A stretch of DNA of 11,402 nt from a bacterium (GTDB lineage: Bacteria > Desulfobacterota > DSWW01), in contig JAUWSZ010000026.1 of NCBI GenBank assembly GCA_030609865.1, positions 1 to 11,402 of the forward strand. The letters run 5' to 3'. Below are positions 1-11,402 of this stretch, piece by piece. The notes beneath the pieces were generated by a model. It had not been told where the DNA came from and ran no database searches. It worked only from the letters and a program-made list of their open reading frames with translations. A program made the translations under genes and the position numbers. Numbering within the stretch: the stretch's first letter is position 1; each line of letters starts with the position of its first letter.

Positions 1-295
1 AGTGTATCCTCATCAGCGTTTGCCGTTCGCCCGGCCGGAATGGCGCAATAAATCAAGAAGACCCAGGCAGCCTTACACAGCAAATTCAACACTCCTTGTC
101 TCGAGACCATGTGCAATCCTCCTCTACGGATGTTTTTACTTCTGCTAGCGAATGCAAAGTGTATACCACCGGCATAGATGGATGAGGGTCGGAAACATCT
201 AGGTAGACTTCCGACCGGCCCCTTTGCCGGAATGCGTTTGGCTCCTCAAGGGTCTCGAGGTCGCCACCGCCACCGTAGAGACCGTTTCTCCGGTC

Positions 296-322
296 TTTAC
301 AGATTGTCAAAAGATTTGACAA
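296..322 (+). promoter_or_regulatory. Putative upstream activator sequence (array 1) for a sigma-54 activator
   Basis: Three hexameric half-sites are seen: TTTACA at 296-301, TGTCAA at 305-310 (inverted) and TTGACA at 316-321. The last two lie in a perfect inverted repeat, TTGTCAAA (304-311) and TTTGACAA (315-322), around a 3-nt spacer. The first half-site starts 124 nt upstream of the -24 element of the sigma-54 promoter at 420, a usual distance for a bacterial enhancer-binding protein site. The same array, with identical internal spacing, occurs at 9107-9132 in front of the other sigma-54 promoter. Binding by the activator encoded at 7645-9081 is inferred. Confidence 0.72.
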
Positions 323-419
323 CGACCGTTCTTGCGCGAGGCCACCGGGCGCCTCGGTGTCCCGAAAAAAACCCCGAAAATTATGCTTCCCGTGCTCTGA
401 TCACGCGAGCTACGCCTCC

Positions 420-435
420 TGGCACGGCGGTTGCA
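420..435 (+). promoter_or_regulatory. Sigma-54 (RpoN) -24/-12 promoter 1
   Basis: TGGCACG at 420-426 and TTGCA at 431-435 are separated by 4 nt. This matches the sigma-54 consensus (TGGCACG, N4, TTGCW) at every specified position, with the GG and GC dinucleotides 12 nt apart. Transcription would start near 446 and read into the kinase gene at 669. The core is 18/20 identical to the promoter at 9230. Sigma-54 promoters need an ATP-dependent activator; one is encoded in this window, and a candidate activator site lies about 100-120 nt upstream. Confidence 0.88.
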
Positions 436-650
436 TTTGGTTGCAAAAGAGTATAAGAACATCGATTGAAGGGCCATTATCGCAACATACTCACAAGGCT
501 CTCTTTGGACCCGTCTGAACTGAACACCGTCAGCGCGATCACGGCTTGCCCGCTCCTACACCATGGCGGCTCGACCAACGTCACGAGGTGCGAAATAAGG
601 TTTTTGTTGGACTGTTGGTTCGTCCGGAGAGGGTCCGTTCCCGATGCAAG

Positions 651-660
651 AAGGAGAGGA
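651..660 (+). promoter_or_regulatory. Ribosome binding site that fixes the GTG start at 669
   Basis: AAGGAGAGGA lies 8 nt before the GTG at 669. No comparable site precedes the upstream in-frame ATG at 546. The extra 41 codons before 669 resemble no signal or domain, and the membrane segment begins right after the GTG. Confidence 0.8.
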
Positions 661-668
661 CGAAAAGC

Positions 669-2315
669 GTGTACAGACGGCTTAGGCTCAACATTATCAT
701 CCTGATCCTTCTCATCTCTCTGACCCCCTTTCTCTTGCTCGGCGCGATCATCTCCAATGAGTTCTCATTCATGTTCCGCAACGGCTTGGAGGAGCAGATC
801 AAATACCGCGCCCGGGTGCAGGCCAACGCAGTGGACCTCTACCTCAAGGGGCATGCCGCTATCTTGTCCGGGATCGCGGATCTTCACAGCATCGATTCCC
901 TGGTCAAGGGAGAGGAATTGGCCCACGTTCTTGGAATCATCAATGTCCGATCCGGTGGCTTCGTGGACCTGGGCGTCATCGATGATAAGGGACAACATCT
1001 GGCCTACGTCGGTCCCTACAACTTACACGGCCTGAACTACTACCAGGAGCGCTGGTTTGCCGAGGTTATGAGCAAGGGGCTCTACATCAGCGACGTGTAC
1101 ACGGGCTACCGGCAGATACCGCATTACATCATCGCCGTCCGGCGTCAGGAAAACCAGCGTGCCTGGATCCTCAGGGCCACGATCGATTCAGATGCCTTCA
1201 ACCTCTTTGTGCGTGAAGCCAAGGTTGGCCAAACCGGTGATGCCTTCATTATCAACCGAGAAGGCGTTTTCCAGACCAAGCCTCGCTTCGACGGTAAAAT
1301 CCTGGTCGAATCAGGGCTGAACCCATCCCTGTTCGGAGAGGGATCGGTCATCGAAAGGACAACGAGTGACGACAGGAGGATTCTGTTTGCCGGAAGCAGG
1401 CTGAAAAATAAGGATTGGCTCCTCGTCATCACGCAGGATGCAGCCGAGGGGATGGGAGCCTTCTTCAGGACGCGAACAGCCCAGCGGATCTATATGGCGA
1501 TCGGCTGCTGCGCGATCGTCTTGATCACGATCTTCACAACGCATCTGAGCGTCAGACGGCTCGAAAAGACCTATCAAAGAAGGGGCGAACTCAACGCGAA
1601 GTTGATTCAGTCAGACAAACTCGCTTCTCTCGGCAAGATGGCTGCCGGAATTGCCCATGAAATCAACAACCCCTTAGCCGTGATCGGCGAAAAAGCAGGC
1701 TGGATGGAAGACCTCCTGGAAGAAGAAGAGTTCCAAAAGAGCCCCAACTACCAGGAATACAAGACATCGCTCGAGAAGATCGGGCTCCACGTCGAACGGG
1801 TGCGGAAGATCATCTACAACATGCTCAGCTATGCCCGCAAGATGGAGCCTCACCTGGAAGATATCAATGTCAATGACGTTGTGAACCAGACGGTAAGCTT
1901 TCTCGACAACATTGCACGCATCAACAACATCAAGATCGAAACCGACCTGCAGCCCGACCTGCCGATCATCGCCGGCGACCAGGCGAAGCTGCAGCAGGTG
2001 TTCCTGAACCTCATCAACAACGCGATTGACGCGATCGGGAAGGACGGACAGGTACAGGTCCGTACGGGCAACAAGAATGCCCACATCACCATCGACATCA
2101 AGGACGATGGCCCCGGCATCCCGAAAAACCTGCAAAAGAAGATTTTTGATCCCTTCTTCACCACCAAGCAGACCGGGCAAGGAACCGGGCTTGGTCTGTG
2201 GATCTGTTTCGACATCGTGCAGAACATGGGCGGGGCGATCAAACTGGAGAGTGAGGAGGGAGGGGGATCAACCTTTTCGGTTACGTTGCCGGTTGTTCCG
2301 CCCCAAAGGAAATAG
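669..2315 (+). CDS. Membrane sensor histidine kinase with dCache-type periplasmic domain (HK1)
   Basis: The 548-residue protein starts at GTG 669, chosen because of the strong ribosome binding site. A transmembrane helix at about 8-28 and another at about 274-294 flank a periplasmic region of about 240 residues that looks like a double Cache domain (ERWF near 127-130, then the conserved-looking stretch YISDVYTGYRQIPHYIIAV). The cytoplasmic kinase is complete: H-box AHEINNPL with phospho-acceptor His330, N-box around Asn447-Asn451, G1 DDGPGIP (479-485), F-box DPFFTTK (494-500) and G2 GTGLGL (505-510). There is no obvious HAMP domain; the dimerisation helices follow a short linker after TM2. 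It should autophosphorylate on an extracytoplasmic small-molecule cue and pass phosphate to the receiver encoded 14 nt downstream. It is a paralog of the kinase at 9720: both have a GW..D(L/M)L motif after the H-box and similar Cache residues. Being in an operon with a DASS transporter suggests that it senses a transported anion, but the ligand is not readable from sequence. Confidence 0.93.
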   Translation: MYRRLRLNIIILILLISLTPFLLLGAIISNEFSFMFRNGLEEQIKYRARVQANAVDLYLKGHAAILSGIADLHSIDSLVKGEELAHVLGIINVRSGGFVDLGVIDDKGQHLAYVGPYNLHGLNYYQERWFAEVMSKGLYISDVYTGYRQIPHYIIAVRRQENQRAWILRATIDSDAFNLFVREAKVGQTGDAFIINREGVFQTKPRFDGKILVESGLNPSLFGEGSVIERTTSDDRRILFAGSRLKNKDWLLVITQDAAEGMGAFFRTRTAQRIYMAIGCCAIVLITIFTTHLSVRRLEKTYQRRGELNAKLIQSDKLASLGKMAAGIAHEINNPLAVIGEKAGWMEDLLEEEEFQKSPNYQEYKTSLEKIGLHVERVRKIIYNMLSYARKMEPHLEDINVNDVVNQTVSFLDNIARINNIKIETDLQPDLPIIAGDQAKLQQVFLNLINNAIDAIGKDGQVQVRTGNKNAHITIDIKDDGPGIPKNLQKKIFDPFFTTKQTGQGTGLGLWICFDIVQNMGGAIKLESEEGGGSTFSVTLPVVPPQRK

Positions 2316-2329
2316 GAGGAGACCGAGCC

Positions 2330-2803
2330 ATGGAGAACTTTCGTGTGTTGGTCGTCGACGACGAAACCGACTTCTTGGAGACCATCATCAAGCGCCTTCA
2401 TAAAAGAGGCCTGGAGGCGCAGGGCGTCCCGAGTGGGGAGGCCGCGATCGAGCTGATGAAAGAAAGGCGCTTTGACGTCGTGCTGCTGGACATCAAGATG
2501 CCCGGAGGCATGGACGGAATCGAAACGTTCAGAGAACTGAAGAAACTCCAACCGCTCACCGAGGTGATCTTCCTGACCGGACATGCTACCCTGGAAAGCA
2601 GTGTGGAAGGCATGAAACTTGGGGCCTTCGATTACCTGATCAAGCCGGTAAAACTGGATGATCTGCTACCGAAGCTCGCGGAGGCCTTCCAAAAGAAGAA
2701 CGCTCACGATCAAAAGATCCGAAAATACAAGATCCAGCAGTTGATCAGCCATCCCGCCAGCATTTTCGAACTGGAAAAGGATGATTTTTTTCCAGAAGAC
2801 TGA
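2330..2803 (+). CDS. Single-domain response regulator (RR1)
   Basis: A 157-residue receiver protein without an output domain. The phosphorylation site is intact: acidic pair Asp10/Asp11, phospho-acceptor Asp54 in VVLLDIKMP, switch Thr83 and Lys105 (IKP). After the receiver (about 1-120) comes a charged helical tail of about 35 residues. The start ATG has a strong TAGGAGGAG site that overlaps the kinase stop codon, so the two genes are translationally close (14-nt gap), which fits a cognate pair. A small oddity is an extra Gly in the loop after the phospho-acceptor (MPGGMDG instead of the usual MPGMDG). With no DNA-binding domain it probably acts by protein contact or as a phosphorelay intermediate; the partner is unknown. 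The gap after it (2804-2911) holds no convincing gene. Confidence 0.92.
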   Translation: MENFRVLVVDDETDFLETIIKRLHKRGLEAQGVPSGEAAIELMKERRFDVVLLDIKMPGGMDGIETFRELKKLQPLTEVIFLTGHATLESSVEGMKLGAFDYLIKPVKLDDLLPKLAEAFQKKNAHDQKIRKYKIQQLISHPASIFELEKDDFFPED

Positions 2804-2911
2804 AGACGATGCCTTCGGCTGAGTGGAATCGAAAACCGATAGACGATCTTTTCGGGAAGGAACCCAGCCCCAGTGGACGCAAGTTCTCGATGCAGCGAGG
2901 GAAGGAACAAG

Positions 2912-4492
2912 ATGATCCTGAAGAACAAGATCTTTCAGCTCTGCCTCGCCTTCGGGGTCGGCGCACTGGTCCTGTTGCTGCCCAGGCCCGAAGGAACGCG
3001 ATTCAAGATATCCGGAGATCCGGATCTGAGGCTCTATCAGCAGATCTCGGAGCAGTTCCAACTCCTGGAGCAAGAGCGGAACTCCCCTGAAGAATACGTG
3101 ATCGAACTAATAAAACCTGCGGGCATGAAGACGCCCGGTGCCTACCTTGCCCAAACCGCAGCGCAACTCGATTTATCCGGTGTCAAGATCGATTTTGTCG
3201 ACGGCCTGTCCCCAAAGGCAAAGAGGTTTCTGGCAGTCCTGGCGACTCTGGTCATCCTGTTTGTTCTCGAGCCGATTCCACTGGAGATCATCGCGATCTG
3301 TATCGGGGTCTTCCTGGTAATCATGGGGGTCGCCGATGTCAAAGAGGCCTGGGCGCCCTACATGCACCCGGTCGTGGTCTTCATCATGTGTTGTCTGATT
3401 TTTGCCATCGCACTCGACAGGGCCGGACTGACCCGGCGGCTCGGCTACCTCATCATCCGTAAGGCAGGCTCCAATGTGACCAAGTTCACGTTCATCATCT
3501 CCATTGGTCTCGGTTGGGCCTCAGCCTTCATGCACGACGCGGCTGCCTGCGCGATCGGTATCGTGACCATGCTTCCCCTGATGAAGGCAGCCGGCATCAA
3601 GCCCCACACGAACACGGCCAAGTTCATGATGCTTTCCTTACCCTTTGCCTGCTCTTGCGGCGGGATGGGGACCCTGGTGGGAGGAGGCCGTTGCATGGTA
3701 TCCGCGGCCTTTCTCAAGGAATTTACGGGCATCGAGATCACCTTCTTTGACTGGATTCTGTACGCCATGCCCGCCGCTCTGGTCACGGTGCCGTTAGCGG
3801 TGTTTATCGTCTATTTGGTCTTTCGCCCGGATCCGTCGATCGAGTTACCCAAGTTCGATGAAGAGATCGGTCCTTGGAGTTCCACGGAAAAGAAGGCGGC
3901 GATTATTATCGCCGCGACCTTCCTCCTATGGTTGACCAAAGGAATGCACGGGTTCCACTATTCCGTGACCGGAATGCTGGGAGTAGCATCCTTGGTCTTG
4001 TTCGGTGTCCTGAAGTGGCAAGACGTTCACGAACATCTGGAATGGGGGACGGCGCTCTTCATCTTTGGGGGGGGAATCTCACTGGGCCTGGCAATGGGCT
4101 ATTCGGGTGCTGCCGCGTATTTTGCCAACGTGTTTTTCCCAATGGTGCAGGGTGGGGGATGGCTCCTGCTGTTCGTCGGCGTCGGTGTTTTCGGGGCCCT
4201 GATCACGAATGCCATGGCAAACGTGGCTGCCGCGGCCCTGATCCTCCCGATCGTGATTCCCATGGCTCAGTTGGAGGGCGTGGACCCGACGATTATGGCC
4301 TTGTGCCTGGGAATGGCCACCTCTTTCGCGATGCTGCTGGTCATTGGGTGCCCCCCCAACGCCATCTCTTACAGCTACCGTCATTTCAAGGCAGCCGACC
4401 TGAGTAAGGTGGGCGTGGTCGCCACACCCGTTCTTCTTGCGGTTCTGGTATTGGTTGTATCCATCTGGTGGCGAATCATCGGGTTGTTGTAA
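2912..4492 (+). CDS. SLC13/DASS-family anion transporter
   Basis: A 526-residue polytopic membrane protein. I chose ATG 2912 over an in-frame GTG at 2873 because a GGGAAGGA-like site sits just upstream. A first helix (about 6-23) is followed by a hydrophilic stretch of about 75 residues (28-102), then a core of ten or more hydrophobic segments. The family signature appears in the second half as SFAMLLVIGCPPNAI (471-485), the DASS/SLC13 'PPNAI' element, and as NVAAAALILPI (437-447). Family members move di- and tricarboxylates, sulfate or related anions, usually with Na+. The hairpin motifs that form the anion and Na+ sites are unusual: HDA (208-210) stands where the first SNT is expected, ANV (436-438) at the second, and the first-half GTPPN loop reads VGGGRC (256-261). 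Substrate and coupling ion are therefore uncertain. Its place between two receivers, in one apparent operon with a sensor kinase, suggests that uptake is tied to signalling. Confidence 0.88.
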   Translation: MILKNKIFQLCLAFGVGALVLLLPRPEGTRFKISGDPDLRLYQQISEQFQLLEQERNSPEEYVIELIKPAGMKTPGAYLAQTAAQLDLSGVKIDFVDGLSPKAKRFLAVLATLVILFVLEPIPLEIIAICIGVFLVIMGVADVKEAWAPYMHPVVVFIMCCLIFAIALDRAGLTRRLGYLIIRKAGSNVTKFTFIISIGLGWASAFMHDAAACAIGIVTMLPLMKAAGIKPHTNTAKFMMLSLPFACSCGGMGTLVGGGRCMVSAAFLKEFTGIEITFFDWILYAMPAALVTVPLAVFIVYLVFRPDPSIELPKFDEEIGPWSSTEKKAAIIIAATFLLWLTKGMHGFHYSVTGMLGVASLVLFGVLKWQDVHEHLEWGTALFIFGGGISLGLAMGYSGAAAYFANVFFPMVQGGGWLLLFVGVGVFGALITNAMANVAAAALILPIVIPMAQLEGVDPTIMALCLGMATSFAMLLVIGCPPNAISYSYRHFKAADLSKVGVVATPVLLAVLVLVVSIWWRIIGLL

Positions 4493-4555
4493 CGAAAAAA
4501 GGAAAGGTGTTAGAATCCGAGGGAAGCATCGTAGAATAGGGAAAGGAAACCTGCC

Positions 4556-4996
4556 ATGATCAAGATCCCGATCAGCATCCTGATCGTTGATGACGAGGAA
4601 GACTTCGTCGAGATGCTCTGCCTGCGGTTGCAGGATCAAGGGCACAACGTCAAGGGGGTCCATGACGGCCAGGCCTGCCTGCAAGCCCTCCAGGAAGACG
4701 ATTTTGATGTGGTCATCCTGGACATCAAGATGCCCGGCATGGACGGTATAGAGACCCTGCAAGAAATCAAGAGGTTGGCCCCGATTGCGGAAGTGATCCT
4801 TCTCACAGGACACGGATCCATTGAAACAGCAGTGGACGGAATGAAGCTCGGCGCCTTTGATTACCTGAGAAAGCCTGCCGCGTTCGACGAGCTGCTGGAA
4901 AAACTGGAGGCGGCCAGAAAGAGGAAGGCGGAACAGGAAGAACGGATTCGGAGGGCGGAGTTGCAGGGACTTCTGCGGAGAACAGGGGACGTTTGA
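4556..4996 (+). CDS. Single-domain response regulator (RR2)
   Basis: A 146-residue receiver protein with all key residues: Asp12/Asp13, phospho-acceptor Asp56 (VVILDIKMPGMDG), Thr84 and Lys106 (RKP). After the receiver (about 1-120) a highly charged tail (about 118-142, rich in Lys, Glu and Arg) should form a helix or coiled coil. It is clearly a paralog of the receiver at 2330: both have GMKLGAFDYL around the switch Lys region and similar tails. A good AAAGGAA site lies 7 nt before the ATG. The 63-nt gap after the transporter shows no promoter or terminator that I can see, so it is likely co-transcribed. No second kinase is adjacent, so it may be a second target of HK1 or act on the transporter or another protein. 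That role is a guess. Confidence 0.92.
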   Translation: MIKIPISILIVDDEEDFVEMLCLRLQDQGHNVKGVHDGQACLQALQEDDFDVVILDIKMPGMDGIETLQEIKRLAPIAEVILLTGHGSIETAVDGMKLGAFDYLRKPAAFDELLEKLEAARKRKAEQEERIRRAELQGLLRRTGDV

Positions 4997-5052
4997 ATGC
5001 CGTATGGGGTTGGAGTGGAACCGCCAACCCCGAACTCACCACCGGAGGGGAC

Positions 5053-5057
5053 GGAGG
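5053..5057 (+). promoter_or_regulatory. Ribosome binding site that fixes the ATG start at 5066
   Basis: GGAGG lies 8 nt before ATG 5066. The in-frame ATG at 4997, next to the stop of the previous gene, has only a weak AGGGGA site, and its extra 23 residues are Pro-rich and not part of the methyltransferase fold. Confidence 0.65.
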
Positions 5058-5065
5058 ACGAAAGT

Positions 5066-5680
5066 ATGTTACCATCGTTGTTGCAAGATATGATCATGGT
5101 TCCGATGCACGCGCTGGAAGGGCTTTCGGTGAGATACGGTTTTTTCCGCGGCCTGTATCGCGCGATCGCACCGTTTTATGGGCGCTCCCGGGGTTCGCAC
5201 TATTTCGGGGAAGACCTTTTCCTCGATGCGATCAATCCAGGGGACAGCGTCCTGGAACTGGGCTCCGGCACCGGGTTTTTGACAAGGTGGGTCGGGAAGA
5301 AGGCCGGGAAGTGCGTGGGGCTCGAGCTGGAACAGGCCATGGTGGACAAAGCAAAGGAGCGGGGTGGCCCGGCCCGGTATGTGGTCGGGAGCATGGAAGA
5401 CATCCCGTTCGAATCCGAATCCTTTGACAGGTGCATCTGTCTGGGTGCATTCCACTGCGTGGATCCTGATAGCGTCGCTGCAGCGGTCTTTCGCGTGCTG
5501 AAAGACAAAGGCGAGTTTCTCGTTCTGATCGACGCCAAGATTATCCCCCGTTTTGCACCAGCCGCGGATCCGGTGCGTGTCAGGCATGCCCTGGAAGAAC
5601 AGGGGTTCGATCTGGTTGACGAAAGACGCGTCGGCAGGTTGTATGCGTGGTTCAGGGGAAGGAAAAAGAGCACGGCGTGA
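5066..5680 (+). CDS. Class I SAM-dependent methyltransferase (Methyltransf_11-like)
   Basis: A 204-residue soluble protein. SAM-binding motif I is VLELGSGTG (62-70), the acidic residue that binds the ribose hydroxyls is likely Glu87 in VGLELE, and the post-II region GSMEDIPF (108-115) is the usual 'D/E-x-PF' signature of UbiE-like enzymes. CLGAFHCVDP (125-134) fits motif IV/post-IV, and FRVLKDKGEFLVL fits the strand-helix after it. The N-terminal 50 residues are helical and carry no signal peptide. The acceptor substrate cannot be told; small-molecule and lipid/quinone methyltransferases share this pattern. It is the last gene of the transporter operon, 69 nt after the second receiver, with a possible alternative start at 4997 touching that gene's stop. 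A link to the transported compound is possible but unproven. Confidence 0.88.
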   Translation: MLPSLLQDMIMVPMHALEGLSVRYGFFRGLYRAIAPFYGRSRGSHYFGEDLFLDAINPGDSVLELGSGTGFLTRWVGKKAGKCVGLELEQAMVDKAKERGGPARYVVGSMEDIPFESESFDRCICLGAFHCVDPDSVAAAVFRVLKDKGEFLVLIDAKIIPRFAPAADPVRVRHALEEQGFDLVDERRVGRLYAWFRGRKKSTA

Positions 5681-5695
5681 GCGGGACGGCTGTCA

Positions 5696-5945
5696 AAGGA
5701 TTCCTCCTTGGTAAGCCATCACATCCGAGCGACGAAATCTCCAGAACCTGCCCTGTTTACCAGCCTTGATTAGATTACTCCTGCCCCAGCCTCGAAGAAT
5801 CAGCAATGACCATGCCAACGCGAAGGGTCCAGGGCGTTCGCCCCAACCCGCTAGAAAAGCAGTGCTGTCTGGCAATTTGGGCGACCTTGGCCAGGCCGTC
5901 CGTTGGACTACATGTCAGAGATTCTTGCGGAGTGTAAAACTTCAT
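5696..5945 (-). pseudogene. Decayed excisionase-like helix-turn-helix gene
   Basis: Read on the - strand, an ATG at 5945 begins MKFYTPQE, a typical opening of small excisionase/MerR-like HTH proteins. About 100-150 nt later, in another frame (5791-5696), comes ILRGWGRSNLIKAGK and then GRFWRFRRSDVMAY, which match the second helix and the wing (consensus like vGrqWRfrrsDv.ay) of the same family. The order and strand are right, but the spacing is too long between the first two parts and too short before GRFWRF, and the frames differ. The gene is therefore broken, probably by an insertion and small deletions. The opposite strand reads nothing sensible here. Confidence is limited because the pieces are short. 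Confidence 0.45.
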
Positions 5946-6028
5946 ATCATCACAAAACCAGACCAAGGGACCATGACCGTGTTGGCGTAGGCCCTTTTGC
6001 CCCAAGAAGGTAGGTTTTTTAAGGAGTT

Positions 6029-6057
6029 TTGACTCTATTACGACGGTTGATTATGAT
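6029..6057 (+). promoter_or_regulatory. Sigma-70-type promoter for the kinase/activator operon
   Basis: TTGACT at 6029-6034 and TATGAT at 6052-6057 are separated by exactly 17 nt, each one base off consensus. Transcription would start near 6064, about 110 nt before the kinase ATG. No sigma-54 element was found here, so the activator operon looks expressed independently of its own product. Confidence 0.6.
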
Positions 6058-6127
6058 GCTTGCAGGTTGCTACCTCGCCTTCATCGACCGGATCCATGAT
6101 CGGGCTTCTGGAGGGAACGGGAAAACG

Positions 6128-6163
6128 ATGAGACGATTTCTGTTTGCTTCTCTCCCCTTATAA
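6128..6163 (+). other. Possible 11-codon leader reading frame
   Basis: ATG 6128 opens MRRFLFASLPL and stops at TAA 6161-6163, 12 nt before the kinase ATG. GGAGGG at 6110-6115 lies 12 nt upstream, a slightly long spacing. The kinase start itself has only a weak site (CGGA), so translation of the small frame could help initiate the kinase. This is speculative. Confidence 0.25.
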
Positions 6164-6175
6164 CGGACATCTACT

Positions 6176-7660
6176 ATGGCGAAGCACCTCAGCTTACGGG
6201 GTCGAATCTTTCTAATCCTCGCGATTTTGGTCCTCATCACCGTGTGCGGCGGATCGGTCATGATCTGGTACACCTACCAGATGGAGTCCCTGTTCACTCG
6301 ATCTGTAGAAAGAGAAATGGCGAAGATCCTGGCGGTTGAGGATTTTCTGCAGGAACTGATCAAGCACAAGGGATTTGTCTCCTACTACTTCATGGACGGG
6401 GATGTGAAATGGCTTACGCGCCTGAAGGAGCAGCGCCAGGCATTTCGGGAACATTTTGCGAACGCCGAGAGACTGGCCTTCACAGCCGAGGACAGGGCTG
6501 CCCTCCAGCGGATCGAATCGAAATACATCCAGTATATCGAATCGAAGGATCGAGTGATCGACCTTTACGAATCGGGCAAACGGGAGGAGGGCTACGTCTT
6601 ACACCAGGAGGTCCGCGAATACTTCGATGAAATGCTGGAGCTCTGTGAGGCCTATGAGGTCATGCACACCAGAAGGCTCCGTAAGATGCAGCTCGAGAGC
6701 CAGGAGCAGGCGAGTCGAATGCGAGCCATCGCGGCAACCGTGATCTTGTCGGCTGTTTTCTTGAGCCTGTTGTTGGTCTTTGTCCTGCTCAGGCAAATCT
6801 TCGGTCCGATTCGGCGTCTGATAACGGAGGCAGAGCGGTCTGGGGGATCGGCGGGTGCGGCGAACGAGATGAAGGCGCTGAGCCACGAAGTGCGAGAGCT
6901 AATCGAGGATGCAGACCAGACCCAGCAGGAGCTGGAAAAGAGCCGATCGAGACTCGTGCAGGCGGAAAAAATGGCCATGGTGGGCAGGTTGGCCGCCGGG
7001 GTGGCGCACAGCATCCGGAATCCCCTGACCTCGATCAAGATGCGGCTCTTCTCACTCGAGCGGTCCCTGGATCTTCCCGCCAACCAGAAGGAGGACTTTG
7101 AGGTCATCTCCGAGGAAACCCGCCACATCGATACCATCGTTCGGAACTTCCTCGAATATGCAAGGCCTTCTAAGCTAAAGATGCAGAAGATCAGCCCCTC
7201 GGAGTTGATCGACATGAACCTCCAGCTTCTCCGCCATCGCTTCAAGTCATACGGGGTGAACGTTGATCTGAGGCGCTCAGAGCCGCTCCCGGAGATCCTG
7301 GCCGACCCGGACCAGTTGAAAGAGGTCTTCGTGAACATCCTGATAAATGCCTGCGAGGCCACGGGTGAGGGGGGTTCGATCTCGATCGAGGAAGAGATAG
7401 CAGAATTGCAGCCCCTGGGGCTTGTTTCGGTGATTCGAATCAGGGACAACGGCCCGGGGATTCCCGCCGAACTTCAGGAGAACGTCTTCGAGCCATTTTT
7501 CAGTACCAAGGAAGACGGCACTGGGCTAGGCCTGAGCATCGCTGTGAGGATCGTTGCACAGCATGGGGGGCGGTTGAGTCTTGAATCAGAGGAGGGGCAG
7601 GGCACGACGTTCATCATCACCCTGCCGTGTCGGGAGGACAAGAGTTGGGAACAATCCTGA
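6176..7660 (+). CDS. Membrane sensor histidine kinase with helical periplasmic sensor (HK2)
   Basis: A 494-residue kinase. TM1 (about 10-32) and TM2 (about 183-206) bracket about 150 residues that are almost all helical and charged, resembling a four-helix-bundle (4HB_MCP-like) sensor rather than Cache. A linker of about 50 residues after TM2 (IFGPIRRL...) looks like a short HAMP or coiled-coil signalling helix. The catalytic part is complete: H-box AHSIRNPLTSIK with His278, N-box VNILINACEA (386-395), G1 RDNGPGIP (423-430), F-box FEPFFSTK (438-445) and G2 GTGLGL (448-453). It belongs to the NtrB/ZraS-like group of kinases that partner sigma-54 activators. Its 3' end overlaps the activator gene by 16 nt, so the two are almost certainly a cognate pair. 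The cue is unknown. The ATG has a weak ribosome site, but no better in-frame start is present and TM1 follows directly. Confidence 0.92.
   Translation: MAKHLSLRGRIFLILAILVLITVCGGSVMIWYTYQMESLFTRSVEREMAKILAVEDFLQELIKHKGFVSYYFMDGDVKWLTRLKEQRQAFREHFANAERLAFTAEDRAALQRIESKYIQYIESKDRVIDLYESGKREEGYVLHQEVREYFDEMLELCEAYEVMHTRRLRKMQLESQEQASRMRAIAATVILSAVFLSLLLVFVLLRQIFGPIRRLITEAERSGGSAGAANEMKALSHEVRELIEDADQTQQELEKSRSRLVQAEKMAMVGRLAAGVAHSIRNPLTSIKMRLFSLERSLDLPANQKEDFEVISEETRHIDTIVRNFLEYARPSKLKMQKISPSELIDMNLQLLRHRFKSYGVNVDLRRSEPLPEILADPDQLKEVFVNILINACEATGEGGSISIEEEIAELQPLGLVSVIRIRDNGPGIPAELQENVFEPFFSTKEDGTGLGLSIAVRIVAQHGGRLSLESEEGQGTTFIITLPCREDKSWEQS
7632..7638 (+). promoter_or_regulatory. Ribosome binding site that favours the TTG start at 7645
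   Basis: GGGAGGA lies 6 nt before TTG 7645, inside the kinase gene. The alternative in-frame GTG at 7627 lies upstream of this site and lacks one of its own. Starting at TTG gives [10 protein letters not shown], the usual opening of a receiver domain. Confidence 0.65.
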
Positions 7661-9081
7661 TCGTTGACGACGATGCACAGCTGCGACAGAGCTTCGAGAA
7701 GATCCTGATCGAGGAGGGGCACACCGTTCGGACCGCGCCCACCGGCGAAGAAGGCATCGAATGGGTGAAGAAGGGGGTGCCGGATCTCGCCATCATGGAT
7801 GTGCGCTTGCCGGGAATGGACGGGTTGGAGGCATTCGGGATCATCCATGATCTGGAACCCAAGCTTTCTGTCATCATCATGACTGCTCACGGGACCACAG
7901 AGACGGCCATCGAGGCAACCAAATTGGGGGCCTTTGATTACGTGACCAAGCCCTTCGAGATCCCGGACATGTTGGCCCTGATCAACCAGGCCCTGGAAGC
8001 GGGCCGGCTGATGCGATCGAAGGTGGAGATGGACGCACTTCCTCAGTCGGCTACGGCCGAGGCTTTGATCGGCCGTAGCAAGGTGATGCAGGAAGTATAC
8101 AAGGACATTGGACGCGTTGCCCCCACAGATGCAACTGTCCTGATCCGTGGTGATTCCGGAACCGGAAAGGAACTGGTCGCGCGCGCCATCTACCAGCACA
8201 GTCTACGGGCTGAAAAACCATTCCTGGTCGTCAACTGTGTGGCCATCCCGGACACCCTGCTGGAAAGCGAACTTTTTGGATACGAGAGAGGTGCGTTTAC
8301 CGGGGCCGGCCATCGCCGTGTGGGGAAGATCGAGCAGGCCAACGGCGGCACCGTGTTTCTGGACGAGATCGGCGACATGCCGTTCAACATTCAGGCGAAG
8401 ATCCTTCGCTTGCTCCAGGAGAAAAGCATCGAGCGTCTTGGAGGCCGACAGCCCATCCCTGTAGACGTCCGGATCATTGCGGCCACCAACCGTGATTTGG
8501 AAAAGGCCATGCAGGAGGGCGGATTCCGTGAGGATCTTTATTATCGGCTGAAGGTCGTAACATTACACTTGCCTACCCTCCGGGACCGGGCAGAGGACAT
8601 TCCGCTGCTGGCCGACTATTTCCTGAGCCGCTTCTCCAGGGAGATGGATATGGAGAACCCTGGACTCATAGAAAAGGCGAAAGAGACACTGAGGAGCGAC
8701 TCCTGGCCAGGCAACGTTCGGGAGCTGGCCAACACCATCCAGAAGGCCCTCATCTTCAGCCGCGGCGTGCCGATCGGCCCTGAGGATGTCTCTCATGCGA
8801 TCCGAGAGAGGAGCGCTGCCACCCCCGTAGGCGGAGAGACAGTAGAGGTGACGATGCGAAAATGGGTGAACGAAATGCTCAGATCCGCTCCGTCGGAAGG
8901 ACATCTTTTCGAGGGTCTGATGGATCGATTCGCTCGGATCCTGATCACGGAAGCCCTCAACATCACGAAAGGCAATCGAAGCCGAGCCGCAAAGTTCATC
9001 GGCCTTTCTCGACCGACCCTCCTGTCGAAGATCGAAAAGTACCGGATTAGGATCGAGACCAAGGTTGGGGAAGAGCAATAA
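7645..9081 (+). CDS. NtrC-family sigma-54-dependent response regulator
   Basis: A 478-residue protein (484 if GTG 7627 is used) with the classic three domains. Receiver (1-120): Asp8/Asp9, phospho-acceptor Asp52 in [11 protein letters not shown], Thr80, Lys102. AAA+ sigma-54 interaction domain (about 140-375): Walker A GDSGTGKE (169-176), intact GAFTGA loop (216-221) that contacts sigma-54, Walker B VFLDE (237-241), FREDLYYRL with the arginine-finger region (294-302) and sensor [10 protein letters not shown] (354-361). C-terminal Fis-type helix-turn-helix (about 432-466): [20 protein letters not shown] then LLSKI. It should hydrolyse ATP to open sigma-54 promoters when phosphorylated by the kinase encoded upstream. 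Two sigma-54 promoters lie in this window, each with the same upstream operator array, and make natural targets; that binding is inferred. A linker of about 45 residues (388-432) between the AAA+ and DNA-binding domains resembles no domain I know. Confidence 0.95.
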
Positions 9082-9106
9082 GTCCCAGGCTTACCCACGG
9101 GTGCGA

Positions 9107-9132
9107 TTTACAGTCTGTAAAAGATGTTGACA
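9107..9132 (+). promoter_or_regulatory. Putative upstream activator sequence (array 2) for a sigma-54 activator
   Basis: Half-sites TTTACA (9107-9112), TGTAAA (9116-9121, inverted) and TTGACA (9127-9132) have start-to-start spacings of 9 and 11 nt, exactly as in array 1. The first two lie in a perfect inverted repeat, TTTACAG (9107-9113) and CTGTAAA (9115-9121), around one base. The array begins 123 nt upstream of the sigma-54 promoter at 9230 and 25 nt after the activator gene's stop. The two arrays match at 19 of 26 positions without gaps. Confidence 0.72.
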
Positions 9133-9229
9133 GACATCCTCCTCGGGCCCATCCCTCCAGACACTCACTAACTAATTGAATCCATACGTTTTTGACCGCT
9201 GAATCCCTTCTTCCTGGACCAGCCGCCAC

Positions 9230-9245
9230 TGGCACAACGGTTGCA
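9230..9245 (+). promoter_or_regulatory. Sigma-54 (RpoN) -24/-12 promoter 2
   Basis: TGGCACA at 9230-9236, 4 nt, then TTGCA at 9241-9245. Only the last base of the -24 block departs from consensus, and the GG-GC distance is 12 nt. The predicted start near 9256 gives a 5' leader of about 27 nt to the ATG at 9283 and makes the alternative GTG at 9262 unlikely. It lies 149 nt after the activator gene and separates it from the next operon. Confidence 0.87.
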
Positions 9246-9282
9246 TTTGTGTTCATAAATCGTGCATACAGTGGGAACGACC

Positions 9283-9690
9283 ATGGACAGGGAATTTACG
9301 ATTTTGATAGCGGACAGGAACCGTCGCATTCGCGAGTTTCTTAGGCGCGAATTTGTGTTGGAGGGATATCACGTACGGCTGGTTGGGGACAGGCACGAAC
9401 TGTCCACCATGATCCGGGGAGACGATACGTTGGATCTCCTTGTCCTGGACAGTGAGATTCTTCCCCCGGACGAATTCCGAATCGTTGCGCAACTTGAGAA
9501 TCGCATACCACCTCTTCCGCTCATCATTCATAGCTTTTCGACGGAATGTGTGGATGTGTGCCTTGCCCGTGCGGCCGCAGCATTGGTAGAAAAAAGAGGC
9601 AACATAGGGGAATTGAAGAAAACAGTGAAGCAGGCATTGCGCAGCGAATACCCCTGCCGGTTTGACCATTCTGAACTGAGGCCGCAATAG
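9283..9690 (+). CDS. Degenerate single-domain receiver (RR3)
   Basis: A 135-residue protein with a receiver-like fold pattern: ILIADRNRRIREFL at the start, LLVLDSEI around the expected phospho-acceptor Asp56, Ser84 where the switch Thr/Ser is expected, and Lys104 in LVEKRG. The acidic pair is altered: Asp11 remains but the second Asp is Arg12, and the usual KP and MPGMDG signatures are missing. Mg2+ binding may therefore be weakened, although Asp56 and Lys104 persist. I chose ATG 9283 over GTG 9262 because the latter lies about 6 nt from the predicted transcription start. It is the first gene after sigma-54 promoter 2, and the kinase at 9720 follows after a 29-nt gap, so they likely work together. 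It could be a phosphorylation-poor regulator or a protein-contact module. A receiver relationship is fairly sure; activity is not. Confidence 0.82.
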   Translation: MDREFTILIADRNRRIREFLRREFVLEGYHVRLVGDRHELSTMIRGDDTLDLLVLDSEILPPDEFRIVAQLENRIPPLPLIIHSFSTECVDVCLARAAAALVEKRGNIGELKKTVKQALRSEYPCRFDHSELRPQ

Positions 9691-9719
9691 CCGGATGCGG
9701 GTCACTCTGGGGAGCGAAT

Positions 9720-11402
9720 GTGCAGGATAGGAACACCGAAAGGATGAATCGCCAGGCCGAAGGTCAGGCCGCAACCGGTCCGAAAGACGACGTTGCCTCC
9801 GCAAGGATCACGGATACGAGAGAGTATTTTCGCCGGCTTCGGCGCCGGCTTCAGATCGGGGTCTCCTTCTCCTTTCTTGTCCCCCTGGGGATTCTTTCTC
9901 TCTATTTCCATTTCCAGCTCAACCTGACCTTGCAAGAGAGCGGCAAGCTGCACCTGACGACCCTTGCCACAAGCCAAGGCAATACCATTGACCTGTTTTT
10001 GCAGGAACGTGTGGTCAACATTTTCAATCTCTTCCATCGGGGCGACTTCGAGCTTCCACCCACGCCCGATGGCATGCGGCGGTATCTTCAGGCCTTGCGG
10101 GAGGCCAGTGACGCGTTCGTGGATGTGGGATTTCTCGATGCCTCCGGTAAGCAGGTTGAATACGCAGGCCCTTATCCTTATCTACAGGGGAAAGACTACA
10201 GCGGAGAACCGTGGTTCCGGACCTTGATCGCAAAGGAGCGTAACTACCATATCACGAATATTTATCTCGGCTTTCGGAAAAAACCGCACTTTACCATCGC
10301 CGTAAAGCAGGATTTCCGGGGCAAGCCGACCGTATTGCGTGCGACCCTCGATCCGGACAAGTTCTACATGTTTCTCCGTACGATGAGCCGGGGTAAAGGA
10401 GTGCATTCCTCCCTGGTCAGTCGGGAGGGGACCTGCCAGGTCGTGGACCCGGACAGAGGCGCCCTTCTCGGGCCCTCTGACTACATTCCCCCGGAGAAGG
10501 AGGGATCCGGGGCCCAAGAGATTGCCAACAACGGCGACACGGAGCTCGTCGCGTATGCCTGGCTGAAAGAGGTCCCGTGGGCCCTGATCGTCAGGCAGCC
10601 ACTGGGGGTCGCTTATGCAACGATGTACAGGGCCCGCCGGATCATGATCGTGAGTATCGTCGTACTCGTATTGATGATCATCACCGTGGTCTGGCTGATC
10701 ACGGACCGATTGCTTCGTCGCGCACAGGCATCCGAAGAATCGAGGATGTCGCTTAAGTCGCAACTCATCCACGCTGCCAAGCTGGCTTCGGTTGGCGAAC
10801 TTGCCTCGGGAGTCGCGCACGAGATCAACAATCCCCTGGCCATTGTTGCTTCGGAAAGCGGCTGGATACAGGACATGTTGGATCCTCAGTTTGGAATGGA
10901 CTTCTCTGCCGATAAGGTCCGGCAGTCTTTGAAGCAGATCGATCACGCTGTTTTTCGTGCGAAGAACATAACACACAAACTGTTGGGCTTCGCACGGAAG
11001 AACGAACCTCGGCTTTCCGTCTGCAATGTGAATCAGATTTTGGATGATGTGGTCAGCGGTCTCAAGGAACAGGAATTCAGTGTCTCGAATATCCGACTGA
11101 TTCGTGAGTATGCTCCGGATCTTCCCGACGTTCTCCTGGATCCCGATCAAATGCAGCAGGTGTTTCTGAATCTGGTCAACAATGCACAAGACGCAATGGA
11201 TGGCGCCGGCACGATCACGCTCACAACCCAACGGGCAGAGCAGTCCATTCGCGTTACGGTTGCCGATACGGGAAAGGGCATGACTTCGGGAGAAATCGAA
11301 AAGATCTTCTTTCCCTTTCATACGACCAAAGAAGTGGGGAAGGGGACCGGACTCGGGCTGAGTGTGAGTTTGAGCATCGTGGAGGCCGTGGGAGGTCGCA
11401 TA
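9720..11402 (+). CDS. Membrane sensor histidine kinase with dCache-type domain (HK3), cut by window end
   Basis: The frame is open for 561 codons to the window edge; only the last few tens of residues should be missing. I chose GTG 9720 because GGGGAG (9709-9714) lies 5 nt upstream; ATG 9744 is a possible alternative. TM1 is at about 46-65, after a hydrophilic N-terminal stretch of about 45 residues that HK1 lacks. A periplasmic Cache-like domain of about 240 residues follows, with EPWF (163-166) and ITNIYLGFRKKPHFTIAV (178-195), and TM2 is at about 308-328. Kinase motifs are H-box AHEINNPL with His367, N-box LNLVNNAQDA (483-492), ADTGKGM (515-521), F-box FFPFHTTK (530-537) and G2 GTGLGL (542-547). 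The Cache residues around YI(S/T)..Y.G(F/Y)R..PH and the GW..DML motif after the H-box mark it as a paralog of the kinase at 669. It lies in the operon driven by sigma-54 promoter 2, so this sensor would be made only when an activator is on. Confidence 0.92.
   Translation, partial: MQDRNTERMNRQAEGQAATGPKDDVASARITDTREYFRRLRRRLQIGVSFSFLVPLGILSLYFHFQLNLTLQESGKLHLTTLATSQGNTIDLFLQERVVNIFNLFHRGDFELPPTPDGMRRYLQALREASDAFVDVGFLDASGKQVEYAGPYPYLQGKDYSGEPWFRTLIAKERNYHITNIYLGFRKKPHFTIAVKQDFRGKPTVLRATLDPDKFYMFLRTMSRGKGVHSSLVSREGTCQVVDPDRGALLGPSDYIPPEKEGSGAQEIANNGDTELVAYAWLKEVPWALIVRQPLGVAYATMYRARRIMIVSIVVLVLMIITVVWLITDRLLRRAQASEESRMSLKSQLIHAAKLASVGELASGVAHEINNPLAIVASESGWIQDMLDPQFGMDFSADKVRQSLKQIDHAVFRAKNITHKLLGFARKNEPRLSVCNVNQILDDVVSGLKEQEFSVSNIRLIREYAPDLPDVLLDPDQMQQVFLNLVNNAQDAMDGAGTITLTTQRAEQSIRVTVADTGKGMTSGEIEKIFFPFHTTKEVGKGTGLGLSVSLSIVEAVGGRI

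Follow-up and report, generated by a model that had tools for sequence, protein, structure and literature searches.

A three-half-site array, very probably the operator of an NtrC-family activator, recurs before sigma-54 promoters across a bacterial phylum

Are two sigma-54 promoters that carry the same array of upstream half-sites controlled by the one sigma-54 activator encoded between them? The question is raised by an 11,402-nucleotide (nt) stretch of Desulfobacterota DNA (GenBank assembly GCA_030609865.1, contig JAUWSZ010000026.1, positions 1 to 11,402 of the forward strand), here called the window at its full length, in which a first-pass annotation had described the two arrays, taken them for binding sites of the activator and proposed a local regulon. 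We found a regulon with one operator, which recurs at several promoters per genome and follows its regulator across genomes; the regulon is phylum-wide, the operator recurring in regulator-bearing genomes of the phylum. The array is very probably the operator of the activator at 7645-9081, and we hold with high confidence that the window arrays are operators of this NtrC-family protein, which would co-activate the promoters at 420 and 9230. The motif, its spacing, co-occurrence and adjacency, the conservation of the recognition-helix start and the content of the targets were computed; binding, kinase pairing, signal and substrate are what we infer.

Arrays, promoter cores and activator in the window

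The elements on which the argument turns are these (PWM, position weight matrix):

296..321, plus strand: array 1, TTTACA-N3-TGTCAA-N5-TTGACA, predicted operator of operon 1 (PWM score 32.4)
420..435, plus strand: sigma-54 core TGGCACGGCGGTTGCA, with a predicted start near 446, placed from the -12 element
7645..9081, plus strand: NtrC-family activator with receiver, AAA+ domain with GAFTGA, and Fis-type helix-turn-helix
9107..9132, plus strand: array 2, TTTACA-N3-TGTAAA-N5-TTGACA, directly 3' of the activator stop codon (PWM score 39.3)
9230..9245, plus strand: sigma-54 core TGGCACAACGGTTGCA, with a predicted start near 9256

The half-sites TTTACA, TGTMAA and TTGACA stand where they had been annotated, at 296, 305 and 316 and again at 9107, 9116 and 9127, and the 26-mer array pattern matches the window exactly twice, both strands counted, and never in 200 dinucleotide shuffles. 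The cores TGGCACGGCGGTTGCATTTG (420-439) and TGGCACAACGGTTGCATTTG (9230-9249) are indeed identical at 18 of 20 positions, and the pattern TGGCAY-N5-TTGCW finds only these two (420 and 9230) on the plus strand of the window and none in 200 shuffles. The distances from array start to core, 124 and 123 nt, were reproduced, as was the lack of sustained similarity between the flanks of the two arrays in an ungapped side-by-side comparison. A chance origin of the arrays is ruled out by the shuffles together with the reversed-pattern controls given below.

Over relatives the consensus reads TTTACA-N3-TGTAAAAAA-N2-YTGACA, which extends the motif by the A-tract after half-site 2 and relaxes half-site 3 to YTGACA. 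Two overlapping inverted repeats can be read from the sequence, one of 17 bp (TGTMAA-N5-TTGACA) made by half-sites 2 and 3 and one of 15 bp made by half-sites 1 and 2; the classical NtrC site has the same 17-bp geometry. The activator is, as the first-pass annotation had it, the only one of its kind in the window: its sigma-54 interaction domain is the sole one among the nine window proteins scanned with Pfam, and its GAFTGA loop is intact, beginning at residue 216 of 478. Three families exceed their Pfam cut-offs (PF00072, 108.7 bits; PF00158, 244.6 bits; PF02954, 35.6 bits).

Association of the array with the activator and with sigma-54 promoters

A first ortholog scan, which is no census, gave at least 40 ortholog loci (L001-L039, L046) at 63-79% identity, mostly recorded as Desulfobacterales, Syntrophobacterales, Desulfovibrio or Deltaproteobacteria; the remaining 40 listed loci lie at 45% or below. 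The array recurs in 28 of 40 ortholog loci among the matches listed, amid random flanks (at most three mismatches with a core, at most one without). The strict array pattern TTKACRNNNTGTMAANNNNNNBGACA, controlled by the same pattern reversed, was found in 33 of the 40 ortholog-selected genomes, again among the matches listed (64 matches vs. 1 reversed), and in 66 of 395 genomes sampled from the NCBI phylum Thermodesulfobacteriota (the phylum of G009, Desulfobacterales; 138 matches vs. 4 reversed), with up to 10 strict arrays in a single genome (G348).

Orthologs of the activator (called at E ≤1e-150; 52-74% identity) are present in 79 of the 395 genomes, and the array is found in 59 of these 79 vs. 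7 of the 316 others, neither being present in 309 (Fisher p=1e-44, kinship ignored). Since the ortholog is enriched in genomes with dissimilatory sulfite reductase, as marked by dsrA (71 of 79 vs. 119 of 316 others), the test was repeated within dsrA carriers (190 genomes at E ≤1e-100; 188 by the family's own cut-off), where the array occurs in 56 of 71 genomes with the ortholog vs. 4 of 119 without (p=4e-29); among dsrA-negative genomes the figures are 3 of 8 vs. 3 of 197 (p=7e-4). Where the activator is missing, arrays are independent of dsrA (4 of 119 vs. 3 of 197, p=0.43). Arrays also lie close to the regulator gene: 39 of 130, spread over 31 of 59 genomes, are at most 10 kb from it, where about 0.5% would be expected if the genome measures 4 Mb, and 26 of 187 sites are at most 600 nt beyond the 3' end of an ortholog. 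The search that had been proposed as a check, for the array near a sigma-54 motif following the activator in related genomes, was thus strongly positive, and the co-occurrence supports the proposal that the array is the activator's predicted binding site.

A strong -24/-12 core lies 60-300 nt downstream of 161 of the 187 distinct strict sites, vs. 12 in the mirrored upstream window, and after grouping of similar flanks and spacers the counts are 151 of 175 vs. 12 mirrored. Array-core distances (n=161) cluster at 119-124 nt (92 sites, mode 121), with 22 sites at 107-113 nt, one helical turn nearer, 8 at 97-100 nt and 7 at 86-91 nt; the window distances of 124 and 123 nt fall inside the main peak. 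Sites outside 118-126 nt keep the helical phase (61 sites, p~4e-4 at 10.5 bp and 2e-6 at 11 bp; grouped set of 56 sites, p=8e-4 at 10.5 bp and 5e-6 at 11 bp), where the 11-bp period, but not that of 10.5 bp, was picked after the distances had been seen. This stepping across genomes backs the earlier idea that both window arrays sit on the same helical face.

The DNA-binding domain was compared among 99 distinct orthologs (≥55% identity) and 18 homologs (<48%) that passed length and coverage filters. N444, R456, P457 and L459 are invariant in all 99 orthologs and T458 is kept in 97, and the distant homologs mostly carry N or R at position 457, so that P457 is distinctive of the orthologs. The conserved start of the recognition helix fits one conserved operator, a consistency that falls short of proving binding.

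Several observations weigh against this assignment. The proposed refutation, that arrays would not be conserved alongside the activator, failed overall, yet 20 of the 79 ortholog-bearing genomes lack a strict array; nine such loci were examined, of which seven have a degenerate array near the activator and two (L299, L300) have none. An array scoring at least 14 was found at 13 of 20 activator loci of Desulfovibrionaceae (the family of G031) and none at the other 7, and nine rechecked loci of the first listing, several of them short contigs, gave an array only in L001 and L013. Conversely, seven genomes (G048, G049, G081, G101, G117, G185, G370) have the array and no close ortholog, their best full-length NtrC homologs being 43-47% identical and AAA+ pieces up to 59%. 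No good sigma-54 core accompanies 26 of the 187 sites, and the co-occurrence statistics ignore shared ancestry. In the helix, the distant homologs often have R456 and L459 as well, and position 460 is variable within the orthologs, so that the helix evidence is mainly P457.

The seven array-only genomes, each with 6-26 other NtrC-family matches, would suit a different regulator that binds the array and merely co-occurs with the activator in the same lineages; such a regulator would have to account for the nearness of arrays to the activator gene and its 3' end, for an association that persists among dsrA carriers and for the invariance of P457 in 99 of 99 orthologs, and we consider it improbable. 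A recent duplication of the promoter region could be read from the near identity of the two cores and from the dCache kinase and receivers that both window operons contain, but flanks and spacers are unlike and not alignable, and motif and spacing are shared by 187 distinct sites, 175 after grouping, which makes duplication as the source of the likeness scarcely credible.

Window genes, regulon targets and possible role

Besides the activator, the following genes and a further site were annotated in the window:

669..2315, plus strand: dCache sensor histidine kinase (dCache_1 44.8 bits, just below the cut-off of 45; HisKA and HATPase_c above cut-off)
2330..2803, plus strand: RR1, receiver-only response regulator with canonical phosphorylation residues
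2906..4492, plus strand: DASS-family sodium-coupled anion symporter (TIGR00785, 231.3 bits vs. a cut-off of 198.6; PF03600/PF00939)
4556..4996, plus strand: RR2, receiver-only response regulator with canonical residues
4997..5680, plus strand: methyltransferase (Pfam Methyltransf_11)
5802..5817, minus strand: sigma-54 core TGGCATGGTCATTGCT, starting at 5817, 121 nt (the modal spacing) downstream of the third array
5938-5913, minus strand: third, degenerate array TTTACACTCCGCAAGAATCTCTGACA (PWM score 12.4), overlooked in the first-pass annotation
6176..7660, plus strand: presumed cognate kinase of the activator (4HB_MCP sensor, HisKA, HATPase_c)
9283..9690, plus strand: RR3, degenerate receiver-only protein (Response_reg 28.0 bits, cut-off of 30.2 not reached)
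9720..11402, plus strand: second dCache sensor histidine kinase (dCache_1 50.9 bits, HisKA, HATPase_c), extending beyond the window end

Operon 1 thus runs dCache kinase, RR1, DASS symporter, RR2, methyltransferase, and operon 2 RR3, dCache kinase. The first kinase probably starts at a GTG, to judge from the stretch AAGGAGAGGA, in a frame open from 546. The symporter is related to VcINDY, its solved relatives being named dicarboxylate, citrate and SLC13A1 carriers, and an NCBIfam search of the methyltransferase reached no family cut-off. The Pfam scan of RR1, RR2 and RR3 gave no domain beyond the receiver; in RR3 the conserved Thr is missing and the acidic pair is reduced to one residue. The kinase gene at 6176..7660 overlaps the activator gene, and a relative stands before the activator in 33 of 40 ortholog loci among the matches listed. 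Expression of the kinase-activator pair could come from a sigma-70-like promoter at 6029-6057, for which chance alone predicts 0.6 matches.

The third array has a score (PWM ≥12) reached at only 5 of 6.5 million reversed-control positions, and no clear gene follows it and its core in the window: a transcript from this core would be antisense to the methyltransferase gene, the site pointing away from the kinase-activator pair. Because an RR3-like gene follows an array in this divergent position in L014 and L015, the window site may be a relic, or it may drive a small RNA; an RNA product was considered because some array promoters lie far from any open reading frame (ORF), and an Rfam search of the window gave no match.

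Behind the 161 arrays with a core, kinases like the window dCache kinase stand in 36 operons, RR3-type receivers in 28 and TauE/SafE transporters in 27; two clusters of universal stress proteins (Usp) are present in 15 and 8 operons, DASS transporters in 8 and ATP sulfurylase in 3. This tally leaves the second window operon empty, an antisense ORF having been chosen there, and assigns two genes of L008 and one of L163 to two arrays apiece. For the 86 distinct proteins scanned with Pfam, the labels TauE, Usp, DASS and ATP sulfurylase were borne out; the kinase label is a BLAST label (46 genes in the 36 operons), dCache_1 (E ≤0.001) being found in 36 of the 40 kinases of at least 300 amino acids (aa) that were scanned. 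RR3 relatives are the commonest first gene behind arrays, the largest first-gene cluster holding 28. When genes reading away from the array within 4 kb were counted on each side, the promoter side had TauE at 45 of 156 arrays and the mirrored side at 2 of 156, with Usp at 26 vs. 0 and any histidine kinase resembling the window's at 44 vs. 5 (these not being dCache counts). In four loci of Desulfovibrionaceae (L316, L321, L325, L327) the array directly precedes a block that encodes a kinase of the dCache type, one or more receivers, TauE, a protein some 237 aa long and a PPDK-like protein, and in L311 a 140-aa frame lies between the array and the kinase/receiver/TauE block. As the same product types recur behind arrays, both window targets are typical regulon members; the regulon is not merely local, given the number of strict arrays per genome.

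Three further observations concern these operons. ATP sulfurylase genes preceded by an array and a sigma-54 core lie at L174:2895-4115, L105:1-1137 and L182:4708-5982. Of the 11 array operons encoding a protein of about 98 aa (L087:548-844 and relatives), which has an apparent signal peptide and no Pfam match, 10 have it ahead of TauE. Array and core also stand before a large protein (837 aa in L270) with its own sigma-54 interaction domain in L269 and L270 (genomes G117 and G082), an arrangement that suggests a regulatory cascade.

We propose that the 4HB-sensor kinase (6176-7660) would phosphorylate the activator, which would bind the three half-sites, probably as a dimer on the inverted pair, the third half-site and the A-tract assisting further binding or bending. 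A DNA loop over about 120 nt would then bring the activator to the sigma-54 RNA polymerase and so switch on both promoters (420 and 9230); the sensor/transporter operon 1 and the receiver/dCache kinase operon 2 would thereby be co-expressed.

DASS, TauE and ATP sulfurylase among the targets, together with the link to dsrA, lead us to regard an adjustment of how sulfur oxyanions or similar anions are sensed and transported as the most likely role of the system. The operator assignment could be right and the regulon could nonetheless serve general stress or carbon/energy status: Usp proteins recur behind arrays, as do CBS, CoA-transferase-type, PPDK-like and [2Fe-2S] thioredoxin-like proteins, whereas the TauE, DASS and ATP sulfurylase operons and the presence of dsrA in most activator genomes speak for sulfur oxyanions. 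We rate this alternative a serious one, at somewhat under even chances.

A receiver is fused to the N-terminus of DASS in 4 of the 29 distinct DASS frames of the collected loci:

L017:6477-8735, receiver-DASS fusion with acidic pair, Asp, Thr and Lys intact
L022:9784-11871, receiver-DASS fusion with the same residues intact
L024:4709-6871, receiver-DASS fusion with the same residues intact
L244:4857-6944, receiver-DASS fusion with the same residues intact

As the phosphorylation residues are intact, gating of the transporter by phosphorylated receivers would be the simplest reading of the fusions. We tentatively suggest, as a possibility that we would not yet favor, that sulfate-reducing members of the phylum share two tiers of control over the transport of an anion, probably sulfate or sulfite: the 4HB-kinase/NtrC-type pair would, by way of the operator, install the sensor-transporter modules, and within each module receivers phosphorylated by the dCache kinase would gate DASS or TauE directly and would not act on DNA. 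Control of electron-acceptor uptake and export in sulfate reducers is poorly known; with the operator defined, a probable regulator assigned to it and targets listed across the phylum, such control becomes directly testable, and the fusions of receiver and transporter suggest two-component control by a route other than DNA.

Comparison with known systems

NtrC-family activators usually act from inverted-repeat sites upstream of a -24/-12 promoter. The window system is of an ordinary kind, in which an NtrC-type activator has an upstream operator; it is well supported, and wider and more coherent than the first-pass annotation saw. Its activator shares receiver, AAA+ domain with GAFTGA and Fis-type helix-turn-helix with NtrC/ZraR/AtoC-type activators. 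It differs from NtrC proper in falling below the equivalog cut-off of TIGR01818 (NtrC NR(I); 496.8 vs. 558.6 bits), though JGI labels many relatives NR(I), and from NtrC-type systems in its array of three half-sites with an A-tract and in its sensor and transporter targets.

In the literature searched by titles and abstract openings, with subscription papers largely outside that scope, neither motif nor regulon was named, and TTTAC, TGTAAA and TGACA were not found in the main texts on D. vulgaris regulators, supplements and logos lying outside that search. LurR/NrfR of D. vulgaris are, in the portions of the source available, sigma-54 response regulators with several upstream sites (PMC6456213), in both respects like the window activator; LurR was set aside, as its 16-bp sites there (e.g. 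GTCCGCTTTTCAAGAC) are unlike the window array.

Other D. vulgaris regulators resemble the window activator in their targets, as far as the accessible parts of the papers describe them. DVU0539/DVU0946, DVU0118 and DVU2956 are sigma-54 regulators of operons with transporters or Usp, like those behind our arrays, and the tested site of DVU2956 has three conserved half-sites, for which there is thus a precedent; DVU2956 lacks an N-terminal domain, whereas the window activator has a receiver (PMC3333781, PMC10102598, PMC4641369). In DVU0542-0545 two Usp genes flank those for a putative sulfate exporter and a small membrane protein, and this cluster has molybdate phenotypes (PMC10102598). Exactly one activator match at E ≤1e-130 is found in 29 of 59 genomes of Desulfovibrionaceae, and a regulon mapped earlier in D. 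vulgaris may overlap with the window system.

In Desulfosarcina variabilis, according to the sections available of a 2025 paper, DASS sulfate transporters have dCache histidine kinases, response regulators and CBS proteins as neighbors, and a control scheme is proposed in which WalR-type regulators act on promoters (PMC11887813). The window shares the combination of DASS transporter, dCache kinase and response regulators; it differs from the scheme, so far as those sections give it, in that RR1, RR2 and RR3 show the receiver domain only and in that the likely controller is a sigma-54 activator with a defined operator.

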